From Stappia sp. TSB10P1A (GTDB lineage: Bacteria > Pseudomonadota > Alphaproteobacteria > Rhizobiales > Stappiaceae): 64,000 bases of DNA. Shown piece by piece: positions 31,849 to 48,452 of this stretch. The stretch lies in contig NZ_FYAU01000051.1 in the NCBI RefSeq assembly GCF_900185725.1, positions 1 to 64,000 on the forward strand. Reading direction: 5' to 3'. A program made the translations under genes and the position numbers. How positions within the stretch are numbered: position 1 is the stretch's first letter; the number at the start of each line of letters is the position of its first letter. Under the pieces are notes generated by a model, which saw only the letters and a program-made list of their open reading frames with translations, had not been told where the DNA came from and made no database searches.

Positions 31849-33009
31849 CTAACGGCACATGTCGGCGATGAGCCGCGACACGAATCCGTCCGCTGCGACG
31901 ATCTCCGCCGTCTCGATGTATTCGTCGGGCTGATGGGCCTGGTCGATCGAACCGGGACCGCAGACGACCGCGGAAATGCCGCGTTCCTGAAACTGTCCGG
32001 CCTCGGTGCCATAGACCACCATGTGCCGGCCGTTGTCGCCGGTAAGCCGGCGGGCAAGCGCTTCGGCCGGCCCGTCCTGCTCCTCGCTGAGGGCGGGAGC
32101 GTAGGCGAGCTTCTCGACGGTCACCCCCGTGTCGGCGTGGACGGCGCGCATGCCCGGCTCGACCTCGGTGCGGATGAAGGTCTCCAGCCGTTCGAGCCAG
32201 GCTTCCAGCGTGTCTCCGGGGACAGTGCGGATGTCGCAGAAGAAGGAGCAGGAGCGCGAGACGATATTGGCTGCCGTGCCGCCCTCGATCACGCCGCAAT
32301 GCAGGGTCGTGAAAGGCGGGTCCATGGCAAGGGCCGGATCGGCGGCCCGCTGATTCTCGCGGGTGCGGTCATCGAGCCAGGAGATGATGCGGGCGGCATT
32401 GGCGATGGCCGAGACGCCGCGGTCCCACTGGCTGGAGTGAACCGAGTGGCCGCGCACGGTCACACGGATGACCGCTGTTCCCTTATGCGCGGTGATGACG
32501 CGCATGTTGCTGGGTTCGCCGACCACGACCATCGACGGCTTGGGGCCGGAGCGCAGCATCGAATCGATCATCGGAGGTGCGCCGATGCAGCCCACTTCCT
32601 CGTCGTAGGACAGGGCGATGTGGATGGGACGGGTCAACGGTGCGGCGACCATCTGCGGCACGGCTGCCAGTGCCACGGCGGCGAAGCCCTTCATGTCGCA
32701 GGTGCCGCGGCCATAGAGTCGGCCATCGGCCTCGCGCAGGACGAACGGGTCGCTGCTCCAGGCCTGTCCTTCGACAGGTACGACGTCGGTGTGGGCGGAC
32801 AGCGCCACGCCCCCGTCCTTGTGCGGGCCGATCACGGCGTGCAGCGCGGCCTTGGTGCCGGTGGCGTCGGGCACGCGCCGCGCGGCGATGCCGTGCTCCG
32901 CCAGATAGGTTTCGACGAAATCGATGAGATCGAGATTGCTGTTGGAGGAGACCGTCGGAAAGGCAACGAGACGGGCAAGCATTTCCTGGGAAGAATACTG
33001 TCGCGACAT
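31849..33009 (-). CDS. argE: M20 metallohydrolase, acetylornithine deacetylase-like (ArgE)
   Basis: 386 aa with the dinuclear metal motifs SAHTDVVP, GRGTCDMKG, SYDEEVGC and a final His in CGPGSIDQAHQPDEY. The VRGHSVHSSQ segment belongs to the dimerisation domain. The sequence looks like alphaproteobacterial ArgE, which removes acetyl from N-acetylornithine. A broader N-acyl-amino-acid amidohydrolase is possible because it stands next to a peptide-type transporter. It starts 14 bp after the cyclase gene, probably in one transcript. Confidence 0.85.
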   Translation of the reverse strand: MSRQYSSQEMLARLVAFPTVSSNSNLDLIDFVETYLAEHGIAARRVPDATGTKAALHAVIGPHKDGGVALSAHTDVVPVEGQAWSSDPFVLREADGRLYGRGTCDMKGFAAVALAAVPQMVAAPLTRPIHIALSYDEEVGCIGAPPMIDSMLRSGPKPSMVVVGEPSNMRVITAHKGTAVIRVTVRGHSVHSSQWDRGVSAIANAARIISWLDDRTRENQRAADPALAMDPPFTTLHCGVIEGGTAANIVSRSCSFFCDIRTVPGDTLEAWLERLETFIRTEVEPGMRAVHADTGVTVEKLAYAPALSEEQDGPAEALARRLTGDNGRHMVVYGTEAGQFQERGISAVVCGPGSIDQAHQPDEYIETAEIVAADGFVSRLIADMCR

Positions 33010-33023
33010 GGGGGAGACCTGAT

Positions 33024-34727
33024 TCAGGCGGGAGGGGAGCTGTGTCCGGTCAGAGTATCGACCAGGCAGGCCGGCGGGTCGAGAGCGAAAACGTCGAGCG
33101 GTTCGCGCCGCCCCCTGACCGCGATCTCGGTTTTCCCGGCAATGTTGCAGGTGTAGCCGGCGGCCTCCAGCACGGCGCTCGAGACGACGAGGCTGTGTCC
33201 CAGTTCTTTCGTCGCCGTCTCCAGCCGGCTTGCGATGTTGACGACGTCGCCAAGCGCGGTGATCCGGGCGCTGGCACCGTTGCCGCTTACCGCGCCGATG
33301 CGCCCCAGGATCACCGCGCCGGCGTGCAGGCCCATCCCGACCCTGAGCGGCGCGTTCAGTTGCGGTCCCAGTTCGACGTTGAGGCGCTCCATGGTTTCGG
33401 CGATGGCGTTTGTCGCTGCGAGCGCGTTGCGACAGCCGGCCTGCAGCCCGTCCTTCATGCCGAAGATCGCCATGACACCGTCGCCGATGAACTTGTCGAC
33501 ATAGCCGCCGCAGGCTTCGACCGCCTTGGCGGTCTCGCCGAGATAACGGTTAAGGAGGAAGACAACGTCGTAGGAAAGCCGGTGCTCGGCAAGGCCGGTG
33601 AAGTTCCGCAGGTCGACGAACAGGATCGCCGCCGGCTGTTCGACGCCCCAGTGATAGGCATCGCCGTCCGATCCGGCGACGCGTGCTGCGCCGCTTGCCG
33701 GTACCAGGGGCTGGACCTTGAGGGGCGCTTGCGGCCGAACCTGGCACGCAAGGCGAATGTCCTCGCCTGCGCTGATGCGGGCGAGCACCTTCGCTTCGGT
33801 CGCGGACGGGGCGGGTAACGTGTCGAGGCCGTCGAGAATGCGGGTCCGGCAGGTCGAGCAGCGGGCGCGGCCACCGCAGACATCGGCATGGGGGATGCCG
33901 TTCATCTTGCTGATTTCCAGCAGGGTCGGACCGGGGGCGACCCTCACCAGCCGGTCGCCCGGATAGGTGATCTCGATGGTCTTGCGCGGGCGGCGCAGCA
34001 GCGCGCGAACCGCAATGGCGACGAGGGCCATCGCGACCAGTGCATAGAAGCCGTTGCGCAGCGCGGCGATCAGCGGATCCGACCAGACGGCCATCTCCGG
34101 CGTCAGAGGAAAGGGCGGGTTTTCTGTCAGGCGAAGACGTCGGGCCGCGTCGATCCAGCCCCAGGAGGCGAGAACGGGGACGAGCAGGGCGACGGCGAAA
34201 AGGGCGGGCTTGAATGGACCGTAGCCCGGCTTCGGGCGCAGCCAGAAATGCAGACCGATCATGCCGTGCAGCCAGACCAGCAGCATCAGCAGGGTCTGGT
34301 TGAAGACGAGGCCGGGCCACAGGACGCTGAGCACGTTGCGGTAGCTGTCCTCATAGCCGAATCGGTGGGCCAGACCGGCGGTGCCGATGGCATGGGGAAT
34401 GAGCAGGAAGGGGATCGCCAGTCCCAGCAGCAATTGTGCCCATTGCCATGGCGGCAGGCGCAGGCTCCGCCGGCGGGCGGTCTTCCACAGGGCGAGGGCG
34501 ACATGCACAAGAAGGGCGGAGAGCAGCAGGATTTCGCCGGGCGGGCTGCGCCACAGGGCTATGAAAACCAGTCGCCCGGTCTCCATCGCCTCGATCGACC
34601 AGATGCCGAGCATGTGATTGAGGAAGTGGCTGAACGCGAAGGCGAGCAGAACGAGGCCGCTGGCCAGCCGCAGCCCCTGCCGGATTCCTTGCCCGTCCGC
34701 GGATGCGGGCGTCTTTCTCTGTGCCAT
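33024..34727 (-). CDS. Membrane class III adenylate cyclase with [2Fe-2S] domain (CyaC-like)
   Basis: 567 aa with three parts. Residues 20-245 form about six helices with several membrane histidines (His34, 38, 75, 112, 154, 160), as in di-heme anchors. Residues 250-335 form a plant-type ferredoxin domain with Cys284, Cys290, Cys293 and Cys328. A class III cyclase domain begins near 365, with metal Asp372 (FVDLRNFT) and Asp416 (FIGDGVMAIFG). The anchor recalls Sinorhizobium CyaC, described as a quinone-responsive di-heme cyclase. The product, presumably cAMP, would respond to respiratory redox state. ATG 34727 was chosen; 34754 is possible. Confidence 0.85.
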   Translation of the reverse strand: MAQRKTPASADGQGIRQGLRLASGLVLLAFAFSHFLNHMLGIWSIEAMETGRLVFIALWRSPPGEILLLSALLVHVALALWKTARRRSLRLPPWQWAQLLLGLAIPFLLIPHAIGTAGLAHRFGYEDSYRNVLSVLWPGLVFNQTLLMLLVWLHGMIGLHFWLRPKPGYGPFKPALFAVALLVPVLASWGWIDAARRLRLTENPPFPLTPEMAVWSDPLIAALRNGFYALVAMALVAIAVRALLRRPRKTIEITYPGDRLVRVAPGPTLLEISKMNGIPHADVCGGRARCSTCRTRILDGLDTLPAPSATEAKVLARISAGEDIRLACQVRPQAPLKVQPLVPASGAARVAGSDGDAYHWGVEQPAAILFVDLRNFTGLAEHRLSYDVVFLLNRYLGETAKAVEACGGYVDKFIGDGVMAIFGMKDGLQAGCRNALAATNAIAETMERLNVELGPQLNAPLRVGMGLHAGAVILGRIGAVSGNGASARITALGDVVNIASRLETATKELGHSLVVSSAVLEAAGYTCNIAGKTEIAVRGRREPLDVFALDPPACLVDTLTGHSSPPA

Positions 34728-34870
34728 ACAAGCCGCCGTCCGCTCGTCCCGCATCTTGCGGGAAGGTCACGTCTTCAGGAGCCCGGCCTTGACGCTGCAA
34801 GTGCCGGTCGCCCATCCTGCGGCGACCCTTGGCGATCTCTCGCCAACCCCTCCTGTCAGGAACCCTGACC

Positions 34871-35226: not shown

Positions 35227-36042
35227 TCAGGCTTCGCCATCCGGCGTCCACAGTCGGCCGAGATCGAAGGCGTGCATGTCTTTCAGCAATTCGACGAAAC
35301 CGCGCGCGGCATGGTCGAGCGAGGCCTCGCCCTTGGCGGCCGTGGCGGCTGAAGCGTTTCCGACCGTTCCGGCCGGGTTGAGGTCCTGCGCCTTCCAGCC
35401 GAACTGGGCCGGCCCATGGCCGCGCAGGTGCTTGAACTCGCGCAGGAAGTCGAGCTGGGTCGAGCGGAAGTCTTCTGCCTTGCGCATATGCACCAGATCC
35501 GGGCGCAGATAGAGCATCAGCGATGTCTCGATATCGCCGCCATGGATGCCATAGGTGAACTCCTCGTCCGGGAAGACACCGTGCGGCTGGCCGAAGCGCG
35601 ACCAGCCGGTCGCGGTGACCAGCATGTCGTGCTTCACCCGGAGTTCGCGCGCGACGATGTCGATCAGCGGCACGTTGCCGCCATGCGAGGTGACGAGGAC
35701 CAACTTGCGCACGCCGGCGCGGAACACGCTTTCGCCGATCTCGACCCAGGCACGGGTCGCCGTCTCCCAGGACAGCGTCAGCGTGCCCGGCGAGGAGATG
35801 TGCTCGTTGGACTTGCCGATGGCCTGAACGGGGAGGAACGTCGCCGGCACGTCGCGCGGCAGCAGTTCCAGCACGCGCGAGATCTGGCCTTCGGCAATGC
35901 AGGTGTCGGTGAAGACCGGCAGGTGCGGGCCGTGCTGCTCGATCGCCGCCACGGGCAGCACCGCGATCCACGACGAAGTGTCGGCATTGGCGAAGTCGAA
36001 GGCGGTCATCTCGTGCCAGAAGCGGCGGGGCAGGTCGGTCAT
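35227..36042 (-). CDS. Creatininase-family amidohydrolase
   Basis: 271 aa with the metal-binding motifs of the creatininase family: EQHGPHLPVFTD near residue 35, SHGGN mid-protein and GIHGGDIETS. Members hydrolyse creatinine to creatine or open related cyclic amides; others process formamidopyrimidine or peptide substrates. It lies in a minus-strand group with a deaminase and RidA, opposite a sigma-54-linked importer operon. This points to N-heterocycle breakdown. ATG 36042 has a GAGAG-like site. It is convergent with the ArsC-like gene across 8 bp. Confidence 0.85.
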   Translation of the reverse strand: MTDLPRRFWHEMTAFDFANADTSSWIAVLPVAAIEQHGPHLPVFTDTCIAEGQISRVLELLPRDVPATFLPVQAIGKSNEHISSPGTLTLSWETATRAWVEIGESVFRAGVRKLVLVTSHGGNVPLIDIVARELRVKHDMLVTATGWSRFGQPHGVFPDEEFTYGIHGGDIETSLMLYLRPDLVHMRKAEDFRSTQLDFLREFKHLRGHGPAQFGWKAQDLNPAGTVGNASAATAAKGEASLDHAARGFVELLKDMHAFDLGRLWTPDGEA

Positions 36043-36152
36043 GTCGTGCAGCTCTCGTTGGCGTGGCGGTCCTTGCCGCATGGAAGGGCCGAAGGCGGGG
36101 AGACCGGTCGCATCGCCCGGCCTCCTGTCATGTGGGCCCTGCGGGCCGGTCG

Positions 36153-37496
36153 TCAAAGCGCTTCGAGGAAGCGTTTCGCCGCGGCGCCGTGCTCGGCGCG
36201 CAGGCGTTCGATATCGATATGGACGGGACGGCCGTCGACCACCTTCCAGTCGCCGGCGACCATCACCCGGTTCGCCGTATGGGCGCCGCACAGGATCAGC
36301 GCGGCGAGCGGATCGCCGGCGCCGGAAAAACGCAACTCGTCCAGCCGGTAGAAGGCAAGATCGGCCTGCTTGCCGACGGCAATGGCGCCGAGATCCTTGC
36401 GCCCGAGGCAGCGGGCCGAGCCTTCCGTCGCCCAGCGATAGGTGTCGAAATGGGTCACCGACGCCGCGTCATAGGTCAGCCGGTTGATCATCAAGGCGTG
36501 GCGCAGGCTTTCCATCAGGTTGGAATTGTCGTTGGAGGCCGAACCGTCGACGCCGAGGCCGACCGGGCAGCCGGCGGCTTCCAACTCCTTCGTCCGGCAC
36601 TGGCCCGAAGCCAGCGTCATGTTGGAGGTCGGGCAGTGGCACACGCCGACGCAGGCATGGCCGAGGCGCCGCACCTCGTCGTCGTTGAAATGGATGCCAT
36701 GCGCCAGCCAGACGCGCTCGTTGAGCCAGCCGCATTCCTCCAGATAGTCGACGGGCCGGCACTGGAAGTGGTGCAGGCAGTAATCGTCCTCGTCGATGGT
36801 CTCGCCGAGATGCGTGTGCAGGCGGCAGTCGAAGCGCTCGGCCAGCGTCACGCTCTCGCGCATCAGCCGCTTGGTGACGGTGAAGGGCGCGCAAGGGGCA
36901 AGCGCCACCTGGATCATCGCGCCCTCGGACGTGTCGTGATAGCGCGACAGGACCCGTTCGCAGTCGGCAAGGATGGTGTCCTCGTCCTGCACGACCGTGT
37001 CGGGCGGCAGGCCGCCGTCCTTCTGGCTGAGGTTCATCGAGCCGCGCGTCACCGTCATGCGGATGCCGAGACGGGTGGCCTCCTCAACCTGGATGTCCAT
37101 GGCGTTCTCGAGGCCGGCCGGGAAGAGATAGTGATGGTCCGAGGCGGCGGTACAGCCCGACATCAGCAGCTCGGTCAGGGCAAGGCGGGTGCCGAGCCGG
37201 AAGGTCTCCGGCGTGACGTTCCTGGCCCAGATCGGGTAGAGCGCCTGGAGCCAGGGGAACAGTTCCTTGTTGATGGCGCTGGGATGGGCGCGCGTCAGCG
37301 TCTGGAAGAAGTGGTGATGGGTGTTGATCAGGCCGGGAATGACCACCTCGGACGAGGCGTCATGGGTCTCGTCCACCGGGCTTGACGGCTCCCTGCCGGC
37401 CGGTACGAGTTCGGTGATCCGGCCGTTTTCCACCACGATGCCGCGGGCGGCGTTGTCGGCAAGGATGGCGAGCGGGTCCTTGATCCACATGCGCAT
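36153..37496 (-). CDS. Amidohydrolase, 8-oxoguanine deaminase-like
   Basis: 447 aa. The TIM-barrel metal motifs are visible: INTHHHFFQTLTR after a beta-sandwich start, LHTHLGET, a third His in LAHGIHF, and Asp in GVDGSASND. The HHHFFQ and TSNMTLASGQCR segments and length match the 8-oxoguanine deaminase group (atzA/trzN-related). Expected reaction is 8-oxoguanine to urate plus ammonia. Related deaminases act on other aminopurines or pterins, so the substrate is tentative. It is 110 bp upstream of the creatininase-family gene. Confidence 0.85.
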   Translation of the reverse strand: MRMWIKDPLAILADNAARGIVVENGRITELVPAGREPSSPVDETHDASSEVVIPGLINTHHHFFQTLTRAHPSAINKELFPWLQALYPIWARNVTPETFRLGTRLALTELLMSGCTAASDHHYLFPAGLENAMDIQVEEATRLGIRMTVTRGSMNLSQKDGGLPPDTVVQDEDTILADCERVLSRYHDTSEGAMIQVALAPCAPFTVTKRLMRESVTLAERFDCRLHTHLGETIDEDDYCLHHFQCRPVDYLEECGWLNERVWLAHGIHFNDDEVRRLGHACVGVCHCPTSNMTLASGQCRTKELEAAGCPVGLGVDGSASNDNSNLMESLRHALMINRLTYDAASVTHFDTYRWATEGSARCLGRKDLGAIAVGKQADLAFYRLDELRFSGAGDPLAALILCGAHTANRVMVAGDWKVVDGRPVHIDIERLRAEHGAAAKRFLEAL

Positions 37497-37678
37497 GAAT
37501 GTGCGTCCTGTTGTCGGGTCGACCTGCAGGCTTGGATAGCGGCCCGAAGCCGCCCGAGTTCCGCACAGGGAAAAGGGTTGCGTGATTGGCGCCGGCCGAG
37601 AGTACCGTCCGGCGCAATTGCAAGCCTAGCAGAGGCGTCGAAGAGCCGGCAACGGGCTCCTGCTGCCGGCCTCGCGAA

Positions 37679-38071
37679 TCACCGCTCGGGTGCGGCGGCG
37701 ATCACTTCCACCTCGACAACGAATTCGGGTCTGGCGAATCCCGAGACGATCATCAGCGTCGAGGCGGGCGGGGGCGAACCGGTGAACTCGTCGCGTGCCT
37801 TCATGTAGCCGGCAAGGTGCTCGCGGCCCGTCACATAGGCGTTGATCCGCACCATGTCGGAAAATCCCATGCCGGCAGCCGCCAGGATGCGGCCGATATT
37901 CTCGAAGCACAGGCGGGTCTGACCTTCCACATCGGCCGGCACGGCGCCTTGCGAATCGATGCCGAGCTGACCGGAGCAGACGACCAGCCGGCGGCCCGCC
38001 GGGACTTCCACCGCGTGACTGTAGCGGGCAAAGGGCGGGGCCATGTCGGGCGGCGTGATTGCTCTGGTCAT
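37679..38071 (-). CDS. RidA-family protein
   Basis: 130 aa YjgF/YER057c/UK114-type protein with GRRLVVCSGQLGID, MGFSDMVRINAYVTG and PASTLMIVSGFARPEFVVEVE. The Arg corresponding to the imine-deaminase site is not secure from eye alignment alone (an ARPEF segment is present). ATG 38071 has an excellent AGGAGG site. It is first in the minus-strand group with the deaminase and creatininase-family genes. RidA paralogs in catabolic clusters often hydrolyse reactive imines or carbamates. Confidence 0.88.
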   Translation of the reverse strand: MTRAITPPDMAPPFARYSHAVEVPAGRRLVVCSGQLGIDSQGAVPADVEGQTRLCFENIGRILAAAGMGFSDMVRINAYVTGREHLAGYMKARDEFTGSPPPASTLMIVSGFARPEFVVEVEVIAAAPER

Positions 38072-38604
38072 CGGACCTCCTGGAGTTAGGCGGGGGCATC
38101 GGCCCTGTGCGAAGGCACCGGGCGGCTGCGCGCGTGGCTGGACAGGCATCCTAGCCGCGGCGCATTCCCAACGGAAATGCACCTTCGGATGTCATGCCGG
38201 GAAGCCCTGCCCATGATGAAATTTCCGGCGAAGGGGTCGGCCGCAATGCCGCTTTTTTGTGCGCGCAAGCTGGGTTAGTGTCTGCTGTCGATGCCATGAC
38301 GCGCCGCTTGCGGCGTTTGCCCTGGTTGATTTTGCGACTGTCCTTTCGGCGAAGGCTCCAAAAACGGTTCCGGCCCCTAAAGGATTGTCAAAATCGGCTG
38401 GTATCTCAGGGGGCGTGGCACGTCGATTGCTGTGCTTTGAGGAGATGGCTGCAATTTGAGCGTGGCTGATCCTCGATGGCCGATCATACTCGGTCAGCTC
38501 AGGCGGATCCCGCTCGCGGGGCGGGGATCGCCGCAAAAAGAACGGGACGGTGGCCCGACGCAGGCCGACGCGAACTTGGACCATTTCTGGAGGCGAACAG
38601 CATC
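38072..38604. promoter_or_regulatory. 533-bp divergent control region, RidA group / importer operon
   Basis: No convincing gene. The right side carries the sigma-54 promoter at 38416-38431 reading toward the importer operon, with about 160 nt of leader before its ATG. A small hairpin CGCCGC-TTG-CGGCG lies near 38302-38315. I looked for a clear NtrC or other enhancer palindrome and for known riboswitch features and found none I trust. Confidence 0.5.
38416..38431 (+). promoter_or_regulatory. Sigma-54 (RpoN) promoter
   Basis: TGGCACG-TCGA-TTGCT matches the sigma-54 consensus TGGCACG-N4-TTGCW exactly, with GG and GC separated by 10 bp. It reads toward the NMT1-type importer operon starting at 38605. 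Sigma-54 promoters need an enhancer-binding activator such as NtrC; none is encoded in the window. Confidence 0.82.
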
Positions 38605-39630
38605 ATGCGGACAGTATCGAAGAGCGCCCTGCTTGGAGGGGCGGCACTTGCGCTTGTTTCGGTTTCGGCAGGCGGGTCGCTTGCCCAGGAGGCGGTGACG
38701 TTCGGCACCAACTGGCTGGCCCAGGCCGAGCATGGTGGCTACTACCAAGCCGTTGCCGACGGCACCTACAAGGCCTGCGGCCTCGACGTCACCATCGTGA
38801 CCGGCGGACCGCAGGTGAACAACCGGGCGCTCATGCTCGCCGGCAAGATCGACTTCCTGATGGGCGGCAACATGCTGCAGGCGTTCTTCGCCTTGCGCGA
38901 GGGCATTCCGATCGTCGTGGTGGCCGCGGACTTCCAGAAGGAGCCGCAGATCATCCTGACGCATCCCGGCAAGTACGAGAGCTTCGAGGCAATGGCCGGT
39001 ACGGCGCCGCTGCTGATCGGCGACAACGGCTTTGCCTCTTACTATCAGTGGATGATCTCCGAATACGGCTTCACCGTCGAGCAGCGGCGTCCCTACACGT
39101 TCAACCCGGCGCCGTTCCTTGCCGACCCGGCGGCCGGCCAGCAGGGCTATGTCACCTCCGAACCCTTCGCCGTCGAGCGCGAGGGCGGTTTCGCTCCCGA
39201 CATCTATCTGATCGCCGACTACGGCTTCAGCACCTATGCCACCACCGTCGAGACCATGGCCGACACGGTCGCCAACCGTCCGGAGGTGGTGAAGTGCTTC
39301 GTCGAAGGGTCGGCGATCGGCTGGTACAACTATCTGTACGGCGACAATTCGGCGGCCAACGAGGCGATCAAGGCCGACAACCCGGAAATGTCCGACGAGC
39401 AGATTGCCTTCTCCATCGACAAGATGAAGGAGTTCGGCATCGTCGATTCCGGCGATACCGAGACGTTGGGCATCGGCGCTATGACCGACGAGCGGATGAC
39501 CGATTTCTACGACAAGATGGTCAAGGCGGGTGTGATCGAGGACGGCCTCGACATCAAGAAGACCTACACGCTCGACTTCGTGAACAAGGGTGTCGGCCTC
39601 GACATCAAGAAGAAGCTGACGGGGAACTGA
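38605..39630 (+). CDS. ABC transporter substrate-binding protein, NMT1/THI5-like
   Basis: 341 aa with a signal peptide (MRTVSKSALLGGAALALVSVSAGGSLAQ). The mature part starts VTFGTNWLAQAEHGGYYQA, typical of the NMT1/SsuA-like group that binds pyrimidine precursors, nitrate, sulfonates or similar small molecules. A TGGAGG site precedes ATG 38605. It is first in an operon with an ATPase, permease and amidohydrolase. By context the ligand is probably a pyrimidine, purine or related nitrogen ring. Confidence 0.88.
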   Translation: MRTVSKSALLGGAALALVSVSAGGSLAQEAVTFGTNWLAQAEHGGYYQAVADGTYKACGLDVTIVTGGPQVNNRALMLAGKIDFLMGGNMLQAFFALREGIPIVVVAADFQKEPQIILTHPGKYESFEAMAGTAPLLIGDNGFASYYQWMISEYGFTVEQRRPYTFNPAPFLADPAAGQQGYVTSEPFAVEREGGFAPDIYLIADYGFSTYATTVETMADTVANRPEVVKCFVEGSAIGWYNYLYGDNSAANEAIKADNPEMSDEQIAFSIDKMKEFGIVDSGDTETLGIGAMTDERMTDFYDKMVKAGVIEDGLDIKKTYTLDFVNKGVGLDIKKKLTGN

Positions 39631-39692
39631 CCAGCCTTGTCCACTCACGGAATGATCCGGCCGGCGCGGCCGGCAGTGTCGGGGGGCGCGCT

Positions 39693-40514
39693 ATGAGCGC
39701 CTCCTCTTCAGCACCCGCGGGGAGGGAGACCTCCCCGCGGACACCGATCGTCTCGCTGCAGCGGGTGTCGAAGACCTTCGCCAATGCCACGGTGGCGTTG
39801 AAGGACATGACGCTGGACATCAACAGCGGCGAGTTCGTCAGCCTGCTGGGCCCCTCCGGCTGCGGCAAGTCGACGGCCCTGCGCATTATCGCGGGACTTT
39901 CCAGCCCGACGGCGGGGCGGCTGCTGTGGCCGGACGAACGGCCGGGCGCGCGCGACCACGCCATCAGCTTCGTGTTCCAGGAGCCGACCCTGATGCCCTG
40001 GGCGACGGTGTTCGACAACGTTCACCTGCCGCTCAAGCTGAAGGGCAGTTCGGCCGAGACCTCCCGCACCGCCGTCATGGAGGCGCTGGAGATGGTCGGG
40101 CTGGAGAGGTTCGCCAGGAGCTACCCGCGCGAACTGTCCGGGGGCATGAAGATGCGGGTCTCCATCGCGCGGGCGCTGGTGACCAAGCCGCGCCTGCTGC
40201 TGATGGACGAGCCTTTCGCGGCGCTCGACGAGATCACCCGCTTCCGCCTCAACAACGACCTGCTGCGCCTGTGGGAGGAGTTCGGCTGGACGGTGATCTT
40301 CGTGACCCATTCGGTGTTCGAGAGCGTCTATCTCTCCAACCGGATCGTGGTCATGGCGGCGCGGCCCGGGCGGGTCGTGGCCGACCTTGCCGTGGATGCG
40401 CCCTATCCGCGGGACGAGACCTTCCGCACCTCGCATGTCTATTCGGACCATTGCCGGAATGCGTCCGAGGCGCTGCAGGCGGCGATGGCAAGCGAAGACG
40501 ACGATCACCATTGA
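39693..40514 (+). CDS. ABC transporter ATPase, SsuB/TauB-type
   Basis: 273 aa with Walker A GPSGCGKST, the Q-loop VFQEPTLMPW, signature LSGGMKMR, Walker B LLLMDEPFAALDE and switch THSVFES. This is the SsuB/TauB/NrtD group that pairs with NMT1-like binding proteins. ATG 39693 is 62 bp after the binding-protein stop. The C terminus ends in an acidic, His-containing EDDDHH tail. Confidence 0.92.
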   Translation: MSASSSAPAGRETSPRTPIVSLQRVSKTFANATVALKDMTLDINSGEFVSLLGPSGCGKSTALRIIAGLSSPTAGRLLWPDERPGARDHAISFVFQEPTLMPWATVFDNVHLPLKLKGSSAETSRTAVMEALEMVGLERFARSYPRELSGGMKMRVSIARALVTKPRLLLMDEPFAALDEITRFRLNNDLLRLWEEFGWTVIFVTHSVFESVYLSNRIVVMAARPGRVVADLAVDAPYPRDETFRTSHVYSDHCRNASEALQAAMASEDDDHH

Positions 40515-40577
40515 TCGGTGGGTCCGGAGTGCCCGGGCCTTCCGAGTTTCCTGCCGTACAGCCAGAGGACCGACCGC

Positions 40578-41453
40578 ATGACGGCCAACCTGGACACGAC
40601 TGCAAGCCGGAACGGAGCCGCGATGCCGACGGCCGACCCGGCGGAACTCGCCAAGGCCCGCCGCGAGCGGATCGACCGCACCGCGCGCTGGCTGTTGCCG
40701 GTCGTGGTCATGGTTGCCACCATTGCCCTGTGGCAGTGGTATGTCGTTGCCTACAAGGTGCCGCACTACATCCTGCCGGGCCCCGACCGGGTGGTGCAGG
40801 CGCTGGTCGCGGACTGGTCGACCCTTTGGCCGGCCCTCCTGATCACCATCGCGATCACGCTCGGGGCGCTGGTCATCGCCACCATCGGCGGCGTCGGGCT
40901 CGCGGTGCTCTTCGCCCAGTCGAAATGGGTTGAGATGTCCTTCTTTCCCTATGCGGTGATCCTGCAGGTGACGCCCGTGATCGTCATCGCGCCGCTGATC
41001 TTCATCTATGTCCCCTCGAAGATCGCCGGATTGCTGATCTGCGCCTGGATCGTTGCGTTCTTCCCGATCCTGTCGAACACGACGCTCGGCCTGAACTCCG
41101 CCGACCACAACCTGCGCAACCTGTTCCAGCTCTACGGTGCCACCCGCTGGCAGACGCTGCGCTATCTGCGCCTGCCCTCGGCGCTGCCCTATTTCCTCGG
41201 TGGCCTCAAGATCGCCGGCGGCCTGTCGCTGATCGGTGCCATCGTCGCGGAGTTCGTCGCAGGTACCGGGGGCCTCGGCTCCGGCCTTGCGTTCAAGATC
41301 CTCGAGGCGAGCTACCGGCTGAACATTCCGCGCATGTTCGCCGCGATCCTGCTGATCTCGGTCACCGGCATCATCATCTTCGCCAGCCTGAGCGTGCTGT
41401 CGCATCTCCTGCTGCGCCACTGGCACGAGAGCGCGATCAAGCGGGACACCTGA
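40578..41453 (+). CDS. ABC transporter permease, SsuC/TauC-type
   Basis: 291 aa with about six helices. The family pattern is PHYILPGPDRVVQALV after helix 1, an EAA-type loop FQLYGATRWQTLRYLRLPSALPYFLGGLKIAGGLSLIGAI read in part, and VAEFVAGTGGLG. ATG 40578 follows AGAGGA. It is 63 bp after the ATPase gene and 4 bp before the amidohydrolase. Confidence 0.9.
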   Translation: MTANLDTTASRNGAAMPTADPAELAKARRERIDRTARWLLPVVVMVATIALWQWYVVAYKVPHYILPGPDRVVQALVADWSTLWPALLITIAITLGALVIATIGGVGLAVLFAQSKWVEMSFFPYAVILQVTPVIVIAPLIFIYVPSKIAGLLICAWIVAFFPILSNTTLGLNSADHNLRNLFQLYGATRWQTLRYLRLPSALPYFLGGLKIAGGLSLIGAIVAEFVAGTGGLGSGLAFKILEASYRLNIPRMFAAILLISVTGIIIFASLSVLSHLLLRHWHESAIKRDT

Positions 41454-41457
41454 TGCA

Positions 41458-42777
41458 ATGACCCATGCCATGCCAGATGTTCCAGCAACCGGCAGGGTCC
41501 TGCTGGCCAATGCGACCCTGCCGAGCGCCGTCACCGGCGGCACGCTCAACCATCTCGGCGACGGCCTCGGCCGGGCCGACATCCAGATCGAGCATGGCGA
41601 GGTCACGGCCATCGCGCCGCCGGGCCTGTTGACAAGCCGCGAGGGGCTGGCGGTCGTCGATCTCGACGGCGGCCTGGTGCTGCCCGGTTTCGTCGACATG
41701 CACACCCATCTCGACAAGGGGCATATCTGGCCGCGCCGGCCCAATCCGGACGGGACCTTCGCCGGCGCACTCGAAGCGGTGAAGGCGGACCGGCCGGCAT
41801 GCTGGACGGCGGCGGATCTGCGCCGGCGCATGGAGTTCGCCCTGCGCTGCGCTCATGCCCATGGCACGGTGATGATCCGCACGCATCTCGACAGCATTCC
41901 GCCGCAGGAGGAGATCAGTTGGCCGCTCTTCGCCGAAATCCGGCAGGAGTGGGTGGATCGGATCGAACTGCAGGCCTCGGCCCTCTACGGCGTCGAGAGC
42001 CTGCTGATGCCCGGATTTCTCGATCAGATCGCCGATACGGTGTTGAAGACCGGCGGCACGCTCGGCGCGGTCACCTATATGGTCGAAGGGCTGGAAGGGC
42101 ATATCGATGCGCTGTTCCGCGCCGCCGCCGAGCGCGGGCTCGACCTTGATTTCCATGTGGACGAGACGGCGGACCCGGAGGCGCGCTCGCTTGCGATGAT
42201 CGCCGAGGGCGCGCTGCGCAACCGCTTCGGGGGACGGATCGTCTGCGGTCACTGCTGCTCGCTGGCGCGCCAGCCGGAGGACGAGGTCGACCGCACGCTC
42301 GATCTGGTGGCCGAGGCCGGGATCGGCGTCGTGTCGCTGCCGCTCTGCAACATGTATCTGATGGACCGTCAGGCCGGACGCACCCCGCGTTGGCGCGGCG
42401 TGACGCTGCTGCATGAAATGAAGGCGCGGGGCATTCCCGTCGCCGTCGCCTCCGACAACACGCGCGATCCGTTCTATGCCTATGGCGATCTCGACATGAT
42501 CGAGGTGTTCACGCAGGCGATCCGCACCCTGCATCTCGATCACCCGTCGGGAGACTGGATCCGCACGGTGACGACGACGCCCGCAAGCCTGCTCGGCGAC
42601 CCGACGCGCGGGCGGATCGACGCGGGCCTGCCTGCCGATCTGGTCCTGTTCCGGGCGAGGACCTGGAACGAACTCTGCGCCCGTCCGTCCGGTCCGCGCC
42701 AGGTCCTGCGGGCGGGCATTGCCCTTGACCGGACGCTGCCCGACTATCGAGACCTCGACGATCTGATGGAGCCTTGA
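41458..42777 (+). CDS. Cytosine deaminase-like amidohydrolase (CodA group)
   Basis: 439 aa. Metal-site motifs are DMHTHLDKGH, DFHVDETAD and CGHCCSLA, with the final Asp in VASDNTRDPF. This set and order are typical of cytosine deaminase/CodA and related isoguanine, creatinine or N-isopropylammelide hydrolases. It immediately follows the permease, so its substrate is probably what the importer brings in. The exact ring cannot be called from sequence. Confidence 0.85.
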   Translation: MTHAMPDVPATGRVLLANATLPSAVTGGTLNHLGDGLGRADIQIEHGEVTAIAPPGLLTSREGLAVVDLDGGLVLPGFVDMHTHLDKGHIWPRRPNPDGTFAGALEAVKADRPACWTAADLRRRMEFALRCAHAHGTVMIRTHLDSIPPQEEISWPLFAEIRQEWVDRIELQASALYGVESLLMPGFLDQIADTVLKTGGTLGAVTYMVEGLEGHIDALFRAAAERGLDLDFHVDETADPEARSLAMIAEGALRNRFGGRIVCGHCCSLARQPEDEVDRTLDLVAEAGIGVVSLPLCNMYLMDRQAGRTPRWRGVTLLHEMKARGIPVAVASDNTRDPFYAYGDLDMIEVFTQAIRTLHLDHPSGDWIRTVTTTPASLLGDPTRGRIDAGLPADLVLFRARTWNELCARPSGPRQVLRAGIALDRTLPDYRDLDDLMEP

Positions 42778-42780
42778 CGC

Positions 42781-44181
42781 ATGTATGACATCGCCGCGCT
42801 GAAGGCCGCCCTTGACGGGATGGCGATCGAGGACAATCCGCAGATCGTGCGGCAGAAGAGCCGTGATTTCTTCTGGTACTCGCCGGTGCTGAAGCGCCAA
42901 CTGGAGGACGTCACCGCCGATATCGTCGTCAGCGCCCGCAGCGAAGCGGACGTGATCCGCGTCCTGAAGGCCTGCTATGAACTCGACATTCCGGTGACGA
43001 CGCGCGGCGCCGGAACCGGCAATTACGGTCAGGCGATGCCGCTCTCCGGCGGCGTGGTGCTGAGCCTTGCCGAGATGAACGCCGTTCTGGAGACCGGCCG
43101 TGGCTTCGTGCGCGCCGAAGCGGGCGCGATCATGTCGGCCATTGATGACGCCGTGCGCCCGACGGGGCAGGAGTTGCGGATCCATCCCTCCACCTACCGG
43201 ACGGCAACGATCGGCGGCTTCATTGCCGGCGGCTCGGGCGGCATCGGCTCGATCAACTGGGGCGGACTCCGGGATTTCGGCAACATCCTCTCGCTGAAGG
43301 TCGTGACGATGGAGGCGGAGCCGCGGGTGCTGACGCTCTCCGGCGCCGACCTGCACAAGGTCAGCCATGCCTATGGCACCAACGGCATCATCACCGAGGT
43401 GAGCGTGCCGCTGACCGCCGCCTATGACTGGGTCGACGTGCTGGTCGGCTTCGACGATTTCGCGGGCGCGGCGCGCTATGCCAATGCGCTGGCCAATCAG
43501 GACGGCATCCTGACCAAGGAAATCGCTCCCATCGCGGCGCCGCTGCCGCATGACTATTTCCTGCGGCACCGCAAGTTCCTGCGCTCCGACCAGTCGGTTT
43601 GTGCCGTGATGGTGGCGCCCTTCGCGATGGATGCCTTCGATGCCTTCACCCGGCGCCAGGCGGGCGCGGGGATCCTCTACCGCTCGGATCTGGCGAGCGA
43701 GGAGGAGAGCAAGGGGCTGCCGCCGGTCTACGAACTGACCTGGAACCACACGACCCTGCGCGGCCTCAGGGTGGATCCGACGATCACCTATCTGCAGGTG
43801 CTCTACCCCTTCCCCGATCATGTGCAAAAGGCGGTGAAGCTTTCGCAGATGCTCGGCGACGAGGTGCCGGCGCATCTGGAATTCGTGCGCTTCGACGGCA
43901 AGATCACCTGCTTCGGCCTGCCGGTGGTGCGCTATACGACCGAGGAGCGGCTCAACGAGATCATCCGCATCCACGAGGATCTCGGCTGTCCGATCTTCAA
44001 TCCGCACCGCTACACGCTGGAAGAGGGCGGGATGAAGCAGACCGACGCGGTACAGCTTGCCTTCAAGGGGGAAGCGGATCCGAAGGGGCTGCTCAATCCG
44101 GGCAAGATGATCGCCTGGGAGAACCCGGATTTCGACTTCTCGGCCGAGCAGACCTTCCTGTTCCCCGGCCTGGCGCGATAG
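42781..44181 (+). CDS. FAD-linked oxidoreductase (PCMH/GlcD type)
   Basis: 466 aa with the FAD-binding PCMH domain in the N-terminal half: TTRGAGTGNYGQAMPLSGG, GGFIAGGSGGIGSINWGG and YGTNGIITEVSVPL. The C-terminal linked-oxidase end is LNPGKMIAW. Relatives oxidise 2-hydroxy acids such as glycolate or D-lactate. It lies 3 bp after the amidohydrolase, in the importer operon. It may oxidise a ring-opening product or, speculatively, a hydroxylated heterocycle. Confidence 0.85.
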   Translation: MYDIAALKAALDGMAIEDNPQIVRQKSRDFFWYSPVLKRQLEDVTADIVVSARSEADVIRVLKACYELDIPVTTRGAGTGNYGQAMPLSGGVVLSLAEMNAVLETGRGFVRAEAGAIMSAIDDAVRPTGQELRIHPSTYRTATIGGFIAGGSGGIGSINWGGLRDFGNILSLKVVTMEAEPRVLTLSGADLHKVSHAYGTNGIITEVSVPLTAAYDWVDVLVGFDDFAGAARYANALANQDGILTKEIAPIAAPLPHDYFLRHRKFLRSDQSVCAVMVAPFAMDAFDAFTRRQAGAGILYRSDLASEEESKGLPPVYELTWNHTTLRGLRVDPTITYLQVLYPFPDHVQKAVKLSQMLGDEVPAHLEFVRFDGKITCFGLPVVRYTTEERLNEIIRIHEDLGCPIFNPHRYTLEEGGMKQTDAVQLAFKGEADPKGLLNPGKMIAWENPDFDFSAEQTFLFPGLAR

Positions 44182-44191
44182 GCCGGATCGC

Positions 44192-44773
44192 ATGCGCGTG
44201 CTGCTGATCCATGCGCATCCGGTGGAGGAGAGCTTCTCCGCCGCGCTGAAGGACGAGGCCTTGCGGGTGCTCGTGGCCGCCGGCCATTCGGTCGAGGTCT
44301 GCGATCTCTATGCAAACGGCTTCGACCCGATCCTTAGCCGCGAGGAGCGGCTTTCCTATCACGATCTCGATCGCAACCGGGAACCGGTCGCGGACTATGT
44401 CGCTCAGGTGCTGCGGGCGGAGGCGATCATTCTCGTCTATCCGGTCTGGAATTTCGGCTTTCCGGCGATCTTGAAAGGGTATTTCGACCGGGTGTTCCTG
44501 CCGGGGGTCTCGTTCCGGATGCGGGAGGGCAAGGTGGTGCCCAACCTCCAGCATGTGCGCAGGCTTGTCGCGATCACCACCTATGGCGGCAGCCGGCTGC
44601 GGGCTTTCCTGGTCGGCGATCCGCCGCGCAAGCTGGTCTGCCGGGTGCTGCGTGCCCTGATCGCGCCGACCGGGCGGCTCTCCTATCTTGCGCTCTACGA
44701 TATGAACAGGATCGACGCGGCCGGCCGCTCGGCTTTCGTCGCACGCGTGACGGCGCAACTCGAGAGGCTTTGA
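44192..44773 (+). CDS. Flavodoxin-fold NAD(P)H oxidoreductase, copy 1
   Basis: 193 aa of the NQO1/KefF family: LLIHAHPVEESFSAALKD at the N terminus, ILVYPVWNFGFPAILKGYFDRVFLPG around the FMN site, and a YGG segment after it. It would be an FMN-dependent reductase passing electrons from NAD(P)H to a quinone-like or other small acceptor. It is 10 bp after the FAD oxidoreductase, and its stop overlaps the next paralog (TGATG). Confidence 0.85.
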   Translation: MRVLLIHAHPVEESFSAALKDEALRVLVAAGHSVEVCDLYANGFDPILSREERLSYHDLDRNREPVADYVAQVLRAEAIILVYPVWNFGFPAILKGYFDRVFLPGVSFRMREGKVVPNLQHVRRLVAITTYGGSRLRAFLVGDPPRKLVCRVLRALIAPTGRLSYLALYDMNRIDAAGRSAFVARVTAQLERL

Positions 44774-45360
44774 TGCGCGTTCTTGTGATCTTCAGCCACC
44801 CCGCATCGGACAGTTTCTCGGCGGCATTGTGCAAGACGGCCATGGAAACGCTCAACGCTGCCGGCCACGAGACGCGCCTTACCGACCTTTATGAGCAGGG
44901 CTTCGATCCCGTGATGCACGCGGGCGAATGGCGACGCTATGCCGATCCGGCCGTGAACCGGGATCCGGTTGCCGATCATGTCGACGACCTGCTGTGGGCG
45001 GAGGCGCTGCTGTTCATCTATCCGACCTGGTGGTACGGCCTGCCGGCGATGCTGAAGGGCTATCTCGACCGGGTCTGGATCCCGCATGTGACGTTCGATA
45101 TTCCCACCGAAACCAGCGGGACGCGGCCGCGCATGCAGCACATCCGCAAGATCGCCGTGGTGACGACCTGCGGCGCCTCCTGGCTAATCTCGAAGATTGT
45201 GGGCGAGCCGGGCCGCAAGACGGTGTTGCGCGGCATTCGGCTTCTGTGCCACCCGCTGTGCCGGGTCCGGTATCTCGCCCATTACAAGATGGATACGTCC
45301 ACTGCGGAGAGCCGCGCGCGCTATCTGGCAAAAGTGAAACGCTCGCTTGCGAGCTGGTAA
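44773..45360 (+). CDS. Flavodoxin-fold NAD(P)H oxidoreductase, copy 2
   Basis: 195 aa paralog of the preceding gene: VLVIFSHPASDSFSAALCKTAM, then LLFIYPTWWYGLPAMLKGYLDRVW and TTCGASWL. The two proteins align along their whole length, so the pair arose by tandem duplication and may form a heterodimer. ATG 44773 overlaps the previous stop. It ends the sigma-54-linked operon. The following 198 bp show no gene or clear terminator. Confidence 0.85.
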   Translation: MRVLVIFSHPASDSFSAALCKTAMETLNAAGHETRLTDLYEQGFDPVMHAGEWRRYADPAVNRDPVADHVDDLLWAEALLFIYPTWWYGLPAMLKGYLDRVWIPHVTFDIPTETSGTRPRMQHIRKIAVVTTCGASWLISKIVGEPGRKTVLRGIRLLCHPLCRVRYLAHYKMDTSTAESRARYLAKVKRSLASW

Positions 45361-45558: not shown

Positions 45559-46029
45559 ATGGCGTTCAATTACAAAAAGAGCGTGACGTTTCGCCTGGCG
45601 CAAACCGCCAAGGCCCATCGTTCGCGCGCAGGCATCCACCTCTCCCGGATCGGTCTTCATCCGGGCCAGGAAGCTGTGCTCAAGATCCTGTCCGAAAACG
45701 ACGGACAGACCATGAGCCAGCTCGCGGCCGTGCTTTCGGTGCAGCCGCCGACGGTCACCAAGATGGTGACCCGGCTCTCGGCTCAGGGTTTCCTGCGCCG
45801 GGCGGCCTCGGAAACCGACGGGCGTCTTGCCCGCGTCTTCCTCACGGACGAGGGCAGGGCGCTGGTCGAGACGGTCGACCGGTCGTGGAAGCGGCTGGAA
45901 CGGGAGGCGCTTGCCGGCCTCGACGAGAAAGACCGCAAGAAGCTGCGCAAGCTGCTTCGGCAGGTGGAAAAGAACCTCGGCTCGCGCATGGTCGAAGAGG
46001 TCGACCTGGAACTCGACGAAGTCGATTGA
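45559..46029 (+). CDS. MarR-family transcriptional regulator
   Basis: 156 aa with the winged helix SQLAAVLSVQPPTVTKMVTRLSAQGFLRR and the wing SETDGRLARVFLTDEGRAL. A C-terminal Lys/Glu-rich helix follows for dimerisation. ATG 45559 has an AGAAGG site 8 nt upstream. It is an orphan between the reductase pair and a DMT transporter in the same direction, so either neighbour could be its target. Confidence 0.88.
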   Translation: MAFNYKKSVTFRLAQTAKAHRSRAGIHLSRIGLHPGQEAVLKILSENDGQTMSQLAAVLSVQPPTVTKMVTRLSAQGFLRRAASETDGRLARVFLTDEGRALVETVDRSWKRLEREALAGLDEKDRKKLRKLLRQVEKNLGSRMVEEVDLELDEVD

Positions 46030-46290: not shown

Positions 46291-47232
46291 TTGGATTCCT
46301 TGCAGCGGGCGGCCAGCGGCTGGGCCCGGCTCATCCCCGAGCGTTTCGTCGGCATCGCGCTGATCTGTTTCGCCTTTCTGTGTTTCTCCTGCCTCGACAC
46401 GACGGCCAAGTATCTCGGCCAGTTTCTGCCGACGGAGCAGGTCGTGTGGATGCGTTTCATGACGCATATCCTCTATGGCGTCCTGCTGTTCCGCCTTTGG
46501 CGGATGCCGCAGGTGCTGCATACGCGCCGCTGGGGACTGCAGATCCTGCGAGCCCTGTGCCTGCTTGGATCGACCGCCTTCAACTTCTTCGCGATCCGCT
46601 ACATGCAATTGGCCGAGACGGTGTCGATCATGTTCGCAGCGCCGTTCGTGGTGACGGCGCTGGCCGGGCCGCTGCTCAACGAATGGGCCGGCCTGCGCCG
46701 CTGGATCGCGATCATCGTCGGCTTCATCGGCGTCCTGGTGGTCACCCGTCCGGGCTTCGGCGAGATGCACTGGGCAGCGCTGCTGTCGGTCTGCTCGATG
46801 CTCTGCTACGCGATCTACGTGCTGACGACGCGCATGCTGACCCAGACCGATTCGCCCGTCGGCATGCTGATGATCTCGGCCATTGTCGCGGCCGCGGCGA
46901 TCTCGCCCTTCGGCATTTCCGCGTGGCAGACCCCGTCGAGCGTCTGGCACTGGGTGTTGCTGCTGTCGACCGGCGCCCTTGGCGGCATCGGCCATTTTGC
47001 CCTGATCCGAGCGCATATGCTGGCGCCCGCCCCGGTGCTGGCGCCTTTCATGTACACGCAGATCCTCTGGATGGTCGCGCTCGGCTATCTCGTCTTCGCC
47101 GACGTTCCGACCGTCTACACGGTGACCGGCGCATCCATCGTCACCGCCTCCGGCCTCTACATCCTCTATCGCGAGCGCAAGATCTCCCGTGCCGAGGTCG
47201 CCGCCGAGGCGGCCTCGCAGGGGCGGGGGTAG
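46291..47232 (+). CDS. EamA/DMT-family transporter, copy 1
   Basis: 313 aa with ten predicted helices and two EamA repeats (first part ending RPGFGEMHW, second ending SGLYILYRERK). The start is TTG 46291, 10 nt after a GAGTGAGGG stretch; there is no ATG in a better position. The upstream 261 bp hold no gene but include an AT-rich patch near 46195-46215 that may be the promoter. Substrates are unknown. It resembles the DMT protein at 58861-59787. Confidence 0.82.
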   Translation: MDSLQRAASGWARLIPERFVGIALICFAFLCFSCLDTTAKYLGQFLPTEQVVWMRFMTHILYGVLLFRLWRMPQVLHTRRWGLQILRALCLLGSTAFNFFAIRYMQLAETVSIMFAAPFVVTALAGPLLNEWAGLRRWIAIIVGFIGVLVVTRPGFGEMHWAALLSVCSMLCYAIYVLTTRMLTQTDSPVGMLMISAIVAAAAISPFGISAWQTPSSVWHWVLLLSTGALGGIGHFALIRAHMLAPAPVLAPFMYTQILWMVALGYLVFADVPTVYTVTGASIVTASGLYILYRERKISRAEVAAEAASQGRG

Positions 47233-47265
47233 GACATCTTGTGCGGCGACCGGCGATGGGTAATC

Positions 47266-47281
47266 CTTCAATCGATTAAGG
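47266..47281. promoter_or_regulatory. LacI-type operator-like palindrome
   Basis: A centre AATCGATT (47270-47277) with an imperfect outer dyad (CTTC and AAGG) lies 35 bp before the LacI-family gene. A central CG and this half-site pattern are usual for LacI-family operators, so autoregulation is plausible. Confidence 0.5.
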
Positions 47282-47315
47282 TCGCCGTTCGGCGGCCCGA
47301 ACCGAGGGGCGGAGC

Positions 47316-48452
47316 GTGAGCGACAGATCTTCGGGACGCCGGGGCCGCCCGAGCGCAACGGTGGCAGTGGTGCCGGCCGGTGAGGACAGCGGCAGCGCGA
47401 TTCTGCCCGCCCCCGCGCGTACACTGGTGCGGCGAATCACACTGGGCGACATGGCGGCGGAGCTGAAGGTGTCGACGGCGACGGTCTCGCTGGCCCTGCG
47501 CAATTCGCCGCTGGTTGCCTCCGAGACGCGTGAGCGCATCAAGGCGCATGCCCGCAGCGTCGGCTATATCTACAACCGCTCGGCCGCTGCCCTGCGCACG
47601 GCGCGCTCCAACATGGTCGGGATTGCGGTTCACGACATCCTCAATCCCTATTTCGCCGAAGTCTTCCGGGCGCTGGAGGATGAACTCGGGCGCGAGCAGC
47701 AGGTCGTGCTGATCTGCAATCATCGCGACGACGTGCGCCGCCAGCGCGGCTTTGTCGACAGCCTGCTGCAACACCGTATCGACGGGCTGGTGCTGTGCGC
47801 GTCCGTCGACACCACCGCCGCCGAGATCAACCAGTTGGTGGAGACCGGCATTCCGGTGACGCTGATCTGCCGCGACGTCGAGGGCGCGCGTGCGCCGGTG
47901 GTGCGCGGCGACGACGTTGCCGGCGGGCGGATGCTGACCGAGCATCTGATCGCGCAAGGCCACGAGCGGATCGCGATGGTCGGTGGCAGGCGGCGCAGTT
48001 CGGCCGGGCGCGACCGCAATCTCGGCTGGCGACAGGCGCTGGAGGAAGCCGGACTCGATCCGGCGGCGCAGGTCGACATTCCCGAACTGATGACCCAGGC
48101 GGACGGCCGCGAGGCAGTGCCGGCGCTGCTTGCCGCCCGTCCGCAGCCGACCGCCGTGTTCGGTTTCAACGATCTGATCGCCTTCGGCCTTACGGCGGCG
48201 CTGAAGCGAAGCGGCGTCGAGCCGGGCACGGGCATGGCGATCGGCGGGTATGACGATACCGATGGCGCCGCCGGCGGCTCGCCGTCGCTGACATCGGTAT
48301 GCAACAACCCGGCCCGGATCGGCCGCGAGGCCGCCGGCCTGATCCTGCGCCAGATCGGCGGGGAGACGGTCGGCGACGAGCGCCGCCTGATCGAACCGAG
48401 CCTCACCGTCCGCGAGAGCACGCCGCCACCGCGCGGGGGCCGGTCCGGCTGA
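47316..48452 (+). CDS. LacI-family transcriptional regulator
   Basis: 378 aa. A basic N-terminal extension of about 40 residues precedes the LacI helix-turn-helix TLGDMAAELKVSTATVSLALRN and hinge. The periplasmic-binding-like effector domain includes VGIAVHDILNPYFAEVFRALED and FGFNDLIAFGLTAALKR. GTG 47316 follows GGGGCGGAG. It stands 47 bp before a 2-hydroxyacid dehydrogenase gene and may regulate it in response to a sugar acid. Confidence 0.88.
   Translation: MSDRSSGRRGRPSATVAVVPAGEDSGSAILPAPARTLVRRITLGDMAAELKVSTATVSLALRNSPLVASETRERIKAHARSVGYIYNRSAAALRTARSNMVGIAVHDILNPYFAEVFRALEDELGREQQVVLICNHRDDVRRQRGFVDSLLQHRIDGLVLCASVDTTAAEINQLVETGIPVTLICRDVEGARAPVVRGDDVAGGRMLTEHLIAQGHERIAMVGGRRRSSAGRDRNLGWRQALEEAGLDPAAQVDIPELMTQADGREAVPALLAARPQPTAVFGFNDLIAFGLTAALKRSGVEPGTGMAIGGYDDTDGAAGGSPSLTSVCNNPARIGREAAGLILRQIGGETVGDERRLIEPSLTVRESTPPPRGGRSG

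Follow-up and report, generated by a model that had tools for sequence, protein, structure and literature searches.

A conserved gene set in Stappia that probably serves pterin catabolism

What compound is handled by a locus that joins an importer, two amidohydrolases and a flavoenzyme to a sigma-54-type promoter element? The gene set in question occupies positions 35227-45360 of a 64,000-nucleotide stretch of DNA from Stappia sp. TSB10P1A (contig NZ_FYAU01000051.1), which was analysed whole and is called the window here; its genes were taken from open frames and their translations, and families were assigned by searches with Pfam and NCBIfam. A minus-strand trio, CRN-OGD-RID (creatininase-family hydrolase, amidohydrolase of the 8-oxoguanine deaminase subgroup and RidA-family protein), faces a plus-strand import and redox operon, SBP-ATP-PER-COD-FAD-FX1-FX2 (binding protein, ATPase and permease of an ABC importer, CodA-like amidohydrolase, FAD_binding_4 flavoenzyme and two flavodoxin-fold oxidoreductases). 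Every gene named in a first-pass annotation of this DNA is an open frame at or near the position given there, and the families agree. The set is likely to be a catabolic cluster for pterins, i.e. folate-derived pteridines, used to obtain nitrogen; pterins and folate fit better than the substrates which that annotation proposed, and were absent from its list.

This assignment leans most on COD (41458-42777, plus strand), which scores 624.6 against a cut-off of 403 with the NCBIfam 'cytosine deaminase' model PRK07583. COD of the window (P0007) and 80 relatives from the clusters were aligned to E. coli CodA, whose residue roles are in part described in PMC6186785. CodA positions 61, 63, 214, 217, 246 and 313, comprising the metal ligands and the catalytic Glu, His and Asp, are kept in P0007 and in all 80 relatives. 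At Gln-156 the relatives have Gly (58), Pro (18), Ala (2), Ser (1) or Thr (1) and never Gln, with Gly-178 in P0007; at Asp-314 all 80 have Asn, as does P0007 (Asn-334), and at Trp-319 all 80 have Phe. Because these three substrate contacts are replaced, COD is ruled out as a cytosine deaminase although the PRK07583 cut-off is exceeded, and cytosine, suggested earlier among the possible substrates, is a poor candidate. The Asp next to the metal-binding Asp, numbered 315 in the source and equivalent to Asp-314 by alignment, is reported to be critical for specificity (PMC6186785). The best Pfam family of P0007 is PF07969, in which pterin deaminase has been placed (PMC13081902). Taken together, the sequence evidence makes COD a probable pterin deaminase.

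A Variovorax enzyme of 399 amino acids is reported to deaminate folate and pteroate and to share 37.0% identity with the A. radiobacter K84 protein Arad3529, and a conserved gene labelled 'endoribonuclease' lies downstream of the Variovorax gene (PMC9513972). We read this endoribonuclease as RidA, since the label is the usual one for RidA proteins. In our data the COD of G445, a genome from the same phylum but outside the order Rhizobiales, was compared with five homologues in a Rhizobium rhizogenes genome: identity is 37.0% with the one in the cluster (L092) and no higher than 28.3% with the four others found. Because the first value matches the Variovorax-Arad3529 figure and the other homologues do not exceed 28.3%, Arad3529 is likely, though not certain, to be the COD of this cluster. 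A COD match is present in 51 of 60 genomes from the genus of the R. rhizogenes genome, none of which is named K84. A 2013 study of Arad3529 reportedly took the neighbouring genes as a sign of a pterin degradation pathway not yet described.

The flavoenzyme FAD (42781-44181, plus strand) is a close relative of PDB entries 6v42/6v43 (704 bits, E of 6.5e-211, residues 3-465), with 66.5% identity to 6v42 over 463 residues, which is near full length; we found no open-licence paper naming either entry. Among the matches listed, the closest named ones are from Stappia (79-83% identical), and at the threshold applied the 5.13-Mb genome around the window has just one FAD. FX1 (44192-44773) and FX2 (44773-45360), both plus-strand NAD(P)H oxidoreductases of PF02525 (Flavodoxin_2), are 45% identical to each other. 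The gaps of 3 bp between COD and FAD and 10 bp between FAD and FX1, and the single base shared by FX1 and FX2, make COD-FAD-FX1-FX2 operon-like. Ahead of them on the same strand lie the NMT1/THI5-type SBP (38605-39630, PF09084), ATP (39693-40514, PF00005) and PER (40578-41453, PF00528, with an alternative upstream GTG start at 40518).

Does the set hold together in other genomes? Our locus sample comprised the best 80 of at least 589 loci with a FAD relative, so near relatives are over-represented, and 64 of the 80 were 20 kb or longer; gene maps of relatives (including L106-L125) are based on tblastn. In these 64 longer loci SBP, ATP, PER, COD and an FX gene are each present throughout, RID in 60, CRN in 55 and OGD in 15; all eight core roles occur together in 52, and the order SBP-ATP-PER-COD-FAD is kept in 61. 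SBP was found in 76 of the full 80. Our second sample consisted of 199 genomes of Rhizobiales, where FAD, which is also found in other groups, occurs in 67, about a third; 64 were used, with the best FAD row of each, leaving out G171, G036 and G144 (FAD matches 50, 45 and 39% identical) together with one short COD fragment row (G089:C350). Counted this way, 64 of the 199 genomes have FAD, 67 have COD and 61 have both (Fisher p of 3e-40, indicative only because the genomes are related). Among the 64 FAD-bearing genomes, 58 have COD no more than 3 kb from FAD, and within 12 kb lie RID in 51, CRN in 44 (with a relative somewhere in the genome in 64/64), OGD in 19, and COD, RID and CRN jointly in 41.

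Beyond the order, FAD was found in 32 of 398 Pseudomonadota genomes, and similar sets occur in Rhodobacterales and in beta- and gammaproteobacteria. All 13 FAD genomes outside the order gave 15 regions of 15.5-19.5 kb (L126-L140), of which 14 contain COD, 12 RID and 11 CRN, plus one weak distant CRN match. Records of Pantoea, Rahnella, Klebsiella, Comamonadaceae and Pseudosulfitobacter hold COD, RID, CRN, importer and FAD together, the three enterobacterial versions having a PDR/VanB-type reductase, and in G445 (L128) the arrangement is FX-COD-RID-CRN-SBP-ATP-PER-FAD with RID directly after COD. The set is thus one conserved functional unit to which both arms belong, and the co-occurrence across loci and the 64 genomes rules out a chance neighbourhood. 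The first-pass annotation had named the co-occurrence of the two arms as a test of its proposal; they do co-occur across the loci and the genomes of the order, and the set of import, deamination and redox enzymes that it described stands as a single conserved unit.

A link to sigma-54 had also been suggested, and this too is borne out. The pattern TGGCNYN5TTGCW, allowed up to one mismatch, was found 19 times in the 64-kb window against 12.4 expected by chance, and the sole site with zero mismatches is the -24/-12 element TGGCACGTCGATTGCT at 38416-38431 on the plus strand, 173 bases upstream of the SBP start codon. In relatives, for which 76 of the 80 loci had a usable region upstream of SBP, sites scoring 11-12 of 12 occur in the sense direction in 41 and in the antisense direction in none. 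The conserved sites begin 57-164 bases ahead of the SBP start, and when the upstream region of each of the 41 was shuffled 50 times, at most one shuffle equalled the score. The import and redox operon carries a conserved promoter element of sigma-54 type, for which nitrogen control is predicted. A crude motif scan of the window found no sigma-54 activator; one may be encoded elsewhere in the genome. A LysR gene lies immediately upstream of SBP in both annotated Rhizobiaceae examples.

The minus-strand arm brings in the strongest of the competing explanations through OGD (36153-37496), which exceeds the NCBIfam 8-oxoguanine deaminase cut-off (PRK08203, 652.7 against 532 bits) and shares 42% identity with 3hpa. 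Cys, Gln, Glu, His and Asp of the active site are retained in 21 of 21 aligned relatives; Cys-202 and Asp-317-Gly-318, likewise kept in all 21, correspond to the active-site Cys and the Gly after the metal Asp described as 8-oxoguanine deaminase features (PMC6186785). OGD differs from 3hpa/7ww2 at a few neighbouring positions, with AHGI for AHCV beside the catalytic His and HCPT for HCPC. An isoxanthopterin deaminase of the 2paj kind was rejected, as all 21 relatives have Cys where 2paj has Thr and identity to 2paj is 34.6%. A dimethylguanine hydrolase looks unlikely too, as OGD has Ala-203 and Thr-206 where that group has Gln and Asn, an unscored reading in which the positions were placed by spacing from the catalytic Glu.

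OGD could therefore belong to a purine-damage route in which it converts 8-oxoguanine to urate, the remaining enzymes handle oxidised purines and COD acts on an isoguanine-like aminopurine. The 8-oxoguanine deaminase signature speaks for such a route, as does the OHCU decarboxylase of the urate route in the window genome, by which urate degradation is present at least in part and may be fed by OGD; so does the pairing of OGD with CRN, which persists where FAD is absent. Of the 76 genomes with OGD, 26 have it no more than 3.5 kb from CRN or RID, four of these being without FAD, and because OGD and CRN are found near each other even then, the two form a separate sub-module. Yet most clusters do without OGD (present in 15 of the 80 loci and, in 19 of 64 genomes, no farther than 12 kb from FAD) while COD, FAD, SBP and RID stay, the OHCU gene is on a different contig, and COD is better accommodated by the evidence for a pterin deaminase. 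OGD is a lineage-specific addition outside the core, and we regard the purine route as unlikely for the set as a whole. The oxidised purine of the first-pass annotation survives as a candidate substrate for OGD.

CRN (35227-36042, minus strand) belongs to the creatininase superfamily (PF02633, 243.6 bits) and falls far short of the creatininase equivalog TIGR04448 (86.7 against 235 bits), so that a true creatininase is rejected and creatinine, suggested earlier among the possible substrates, is a poor candidate; a ring-opening hydrolase of cyclic amides is the probable function. RID (37679-38071, minus strand; PF01042, 81.4 bits) is of the RidA family of imine/enamine deaminases, and its 25.9 bits against a cut-off of 169.1 reject it as RutC.

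Other versions of the cluster carry other second deaminases. In those of Klebsiella (L105, a plasmid record) and Rahnella (L104) an amidohydrolase is encoded divergently from the rest, together with a 2-oxoglutarate oxygenase and a second SBP; in Klebsiella this amidohydrolase is 65.6% identical to 2paj, and in Rahnella 87% identical to that of Klebsiella. In L141 (G171) CRN and a FAD paralogue have nearby a deaminase that is 50% identical to the Klebsiella enzyme by tblastn. L024, L042, L054, L056, L154, L155 and L156 also have a second FAD paralogue (43-50% identical) near CRN, in most cases on the stretch that holds the COD-FAD pair. Its position near CRN suggests a branched pathway, plausibly made of two parallel branches that each have a deaminase and a flavoenzyme and converge on CRN. 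Separately, in an Agrobacterium plasmid record (L099) that gave no FAD match, the neighbours of a COD relative (44% identity) are an ABC importer and a 2-oxoglutarate oxygenase sharing 59% identity with its Klebsiella counterpart; this is perhaps another related route.

From the families and residues above we infer a substrate class, an order of steps and a reaction for each step of pterin catabolism. The ABC importer would bring in a pteridine, from which COD, its catalytic residues in place, would remove the 2-amino group to convert a pterin to the lumazine type, as its relatives suggest. FAD would then oxidise or oxygenate the deaminated pteridine with reducing power from FX1 and FX2, after which, going by the chemistry of their families, CRN would open a cyclic amide and RID would hydrolyse the resulting imine or enamine. 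In this lineage OGD would carry out a second deamination, probably on an oxidised pterin or a purine relative. Transcription of the import and redox operon from the sigma-54 promoter would fit nitrogen control. The first enzyme of such a route is already known, and perhaps the flavoenzyme. We are nearly as ready to accept as to doubt the larger proposal, that these genes make up a complete, old and widespread pathway for the pteridine ring (C2 deamination, flavin oxygenation, ring opening by a creatininase fold and RidA clean-up) whose swappable second deaminases, 8-oxoguanine-deaminase-like or 2paj-like, tune it to oxidised pterins. A description of the whole route, or of any step beyond the deaminase and perhaps the flavoenzyme, was not found in the open-licence literature, a weak negative as most subscription journals lay outside the search; within that range, the first-pass remark that no described pathway has this set was a fair one.

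Several observations weigh against a pterin pathway of this form. At the residues tested OGD resembles 8-oxoguanine deaminase and not 2paj, and it pairs with CRN in four genomes that lack a FAD match at threshold (G027, G165, G137 and G148) and away from the FAD cluster in a fifth (G058). Two anchors of the pterin assignment are presumed identities, 2paj being taken as an isoxanthopterin deaminase and 6v42/6v43 as a flavin oxygenase of folate catabolism. The percentage match that ties Arad3529 to COD was made in a strain other than K84. FAD stands without a nearby COD in 6 of the 64 genomes, two of which look like contig breaks and three of which (G012, G097 and G060) gave no COD at all, and one of the 15 regions outside the order (L126) has FAD, CRN and importer but no COD. 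Conversely, COD relatives (44-54% identical) occur in loci without FAD (L099 and L102). The enterobacterial versions gave no FX match, and the Rhizobium-type lineages no site scoring 11 or more upstream of SBP.

Somewhat less likely than the purine route is that the set serves some other nitrogen heterocycle, natural or synthetic, such as an s-triazine, a hydantoin or an N-alkylated guanine, and that its enzymes only resemble pterin enzymes. The amidohydrolase subgroups concerned are promiscuous, with relatives acting on N2,N2-dimethylguanine and hydroxyatrazine, but the dimethylguanine hydrolases have Gln and Asn in place of Ala-203 and Thr-206 of OGD (PMC13054789). A Pseudomonas plasmid carrying atzD and atzE encodes an amidohydrolase that shares 37% identity with COD; against this, the presence of the set in several classes, mostly with a related gene order, makes it look old, unlike a recent xenobiotic route. 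Least probable is a module for detoxification or cofactor salvage (oxidised folates or pterins, thiamine or flavin fragments) in place of nitrogen scavenging, for although a MarR regulator alongside two NAD(P)H oxidoreductases would be in keeping with redox stress and NMT1/THI5-type binding proteins include importers of thiamine precursors, the sigma-54 element and the importer point to nutrient use, and ammonia would be a product of the C-N hydrolases and of RidA.

Beyond the set itself, the MarR-family regulator gene follows FX2 at 45559-46029 on the plus strand (PF01047). A MarR gene is near the set in 15 of the 80 loci, copies 69-73% identical lie near CRN-OGD in L106/L107 and near CRN-FAD in L120-L122, and the regulator is probably an accessory of the set. 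After it, at 46291-48452 on the plus strand, come genes for a transporter of the EamA type and for a LacI regulator, whose relatives are found close to the set in 14 and 12 of the 80 loci, respectively, and close to OGD-CRN in L106 and L107. On the other side a minus-strand gene at 33024-34754 encodes a protein with 2Fe-2S and adenylate/guanylate cyclase domains; relatives (53-68% identical) occur in 3 of the 80 loci, all Stappia, and in 5 of 52 further loci, sometimes close to CRN (e.g. L114 and L115), and it is possibly a linked regulator. A family-5 solute-binding protein and an M20-family peptidase/deacylase (29958-33009, minus strand) adjoin the locus, and their relatives are seldom near the set (3/80 and 1/80 loci).

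Although most organisms synthesise folates and pterins, bacterial breakdown of the pteridine ring is poorly described. Degradation of folic acid in the environment is reported not to be fully elucidated (PMC9513972). If the pterin assignment is true, this gene set breaks down the pteridine ring, and its parts can be assayed singly. Pterin-sulfamethoxazole conjugates in sludge are reported to be deaminated and then transformed by unclear steps (PMC9686132), and the set may bear on the fate of sulfonamides. The labels 'cytosine deaminase' and 'creatininase' mislead for genes of this set.

How, then, does the set compare with known systems? It resembles the Rut uracil pathway in its predicted logic of nitrogen scavenging under nitrogen control, in which a flavoenzyme and a protein of the RidA family take part; unlike in that pathway, RID is far below the RutC cut-off, and no RutA- or RutB-type family was met among the ten window proteins scanned with Pfam and NCBIfam. 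COD has the metal ligands and the catalytic Glu, His and Asp of E. coli CodA but not its Gln-156, Asp-314 and Trp-319 substrate contacts. OGD keeps the catalytic residues and active-site Cys of 8-oxoguanine deaminase (3hpa/7ww2) and passes the model cut-off, but at 42% identity to 3hpa it has the AHGI and HCPT changes and sits in a pterin-type cluster. The 2paj enzyme has a 66% identical counterpart within the Klebsiella version of the cluster, whereas the OGD of the window is 34.6% identical to it and has Cys for Thr. The available portion of the account of the Variovorax sp. F1 PDA (EC 3.5.4.11) and Arad3529 deals with deamination and carboxypeptidase G, not with the rest of the cluster, but the likeness extends to a CodA-like amidohydrolase and, in Variovorax, to the 'endoribonuclease' beside its gene (PMC9513972). 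The flavoenzyme of the window, for its part, is 66.5% identical to the 'FAD/FMN-containing dehydrogenase' of 6v42/6v43.

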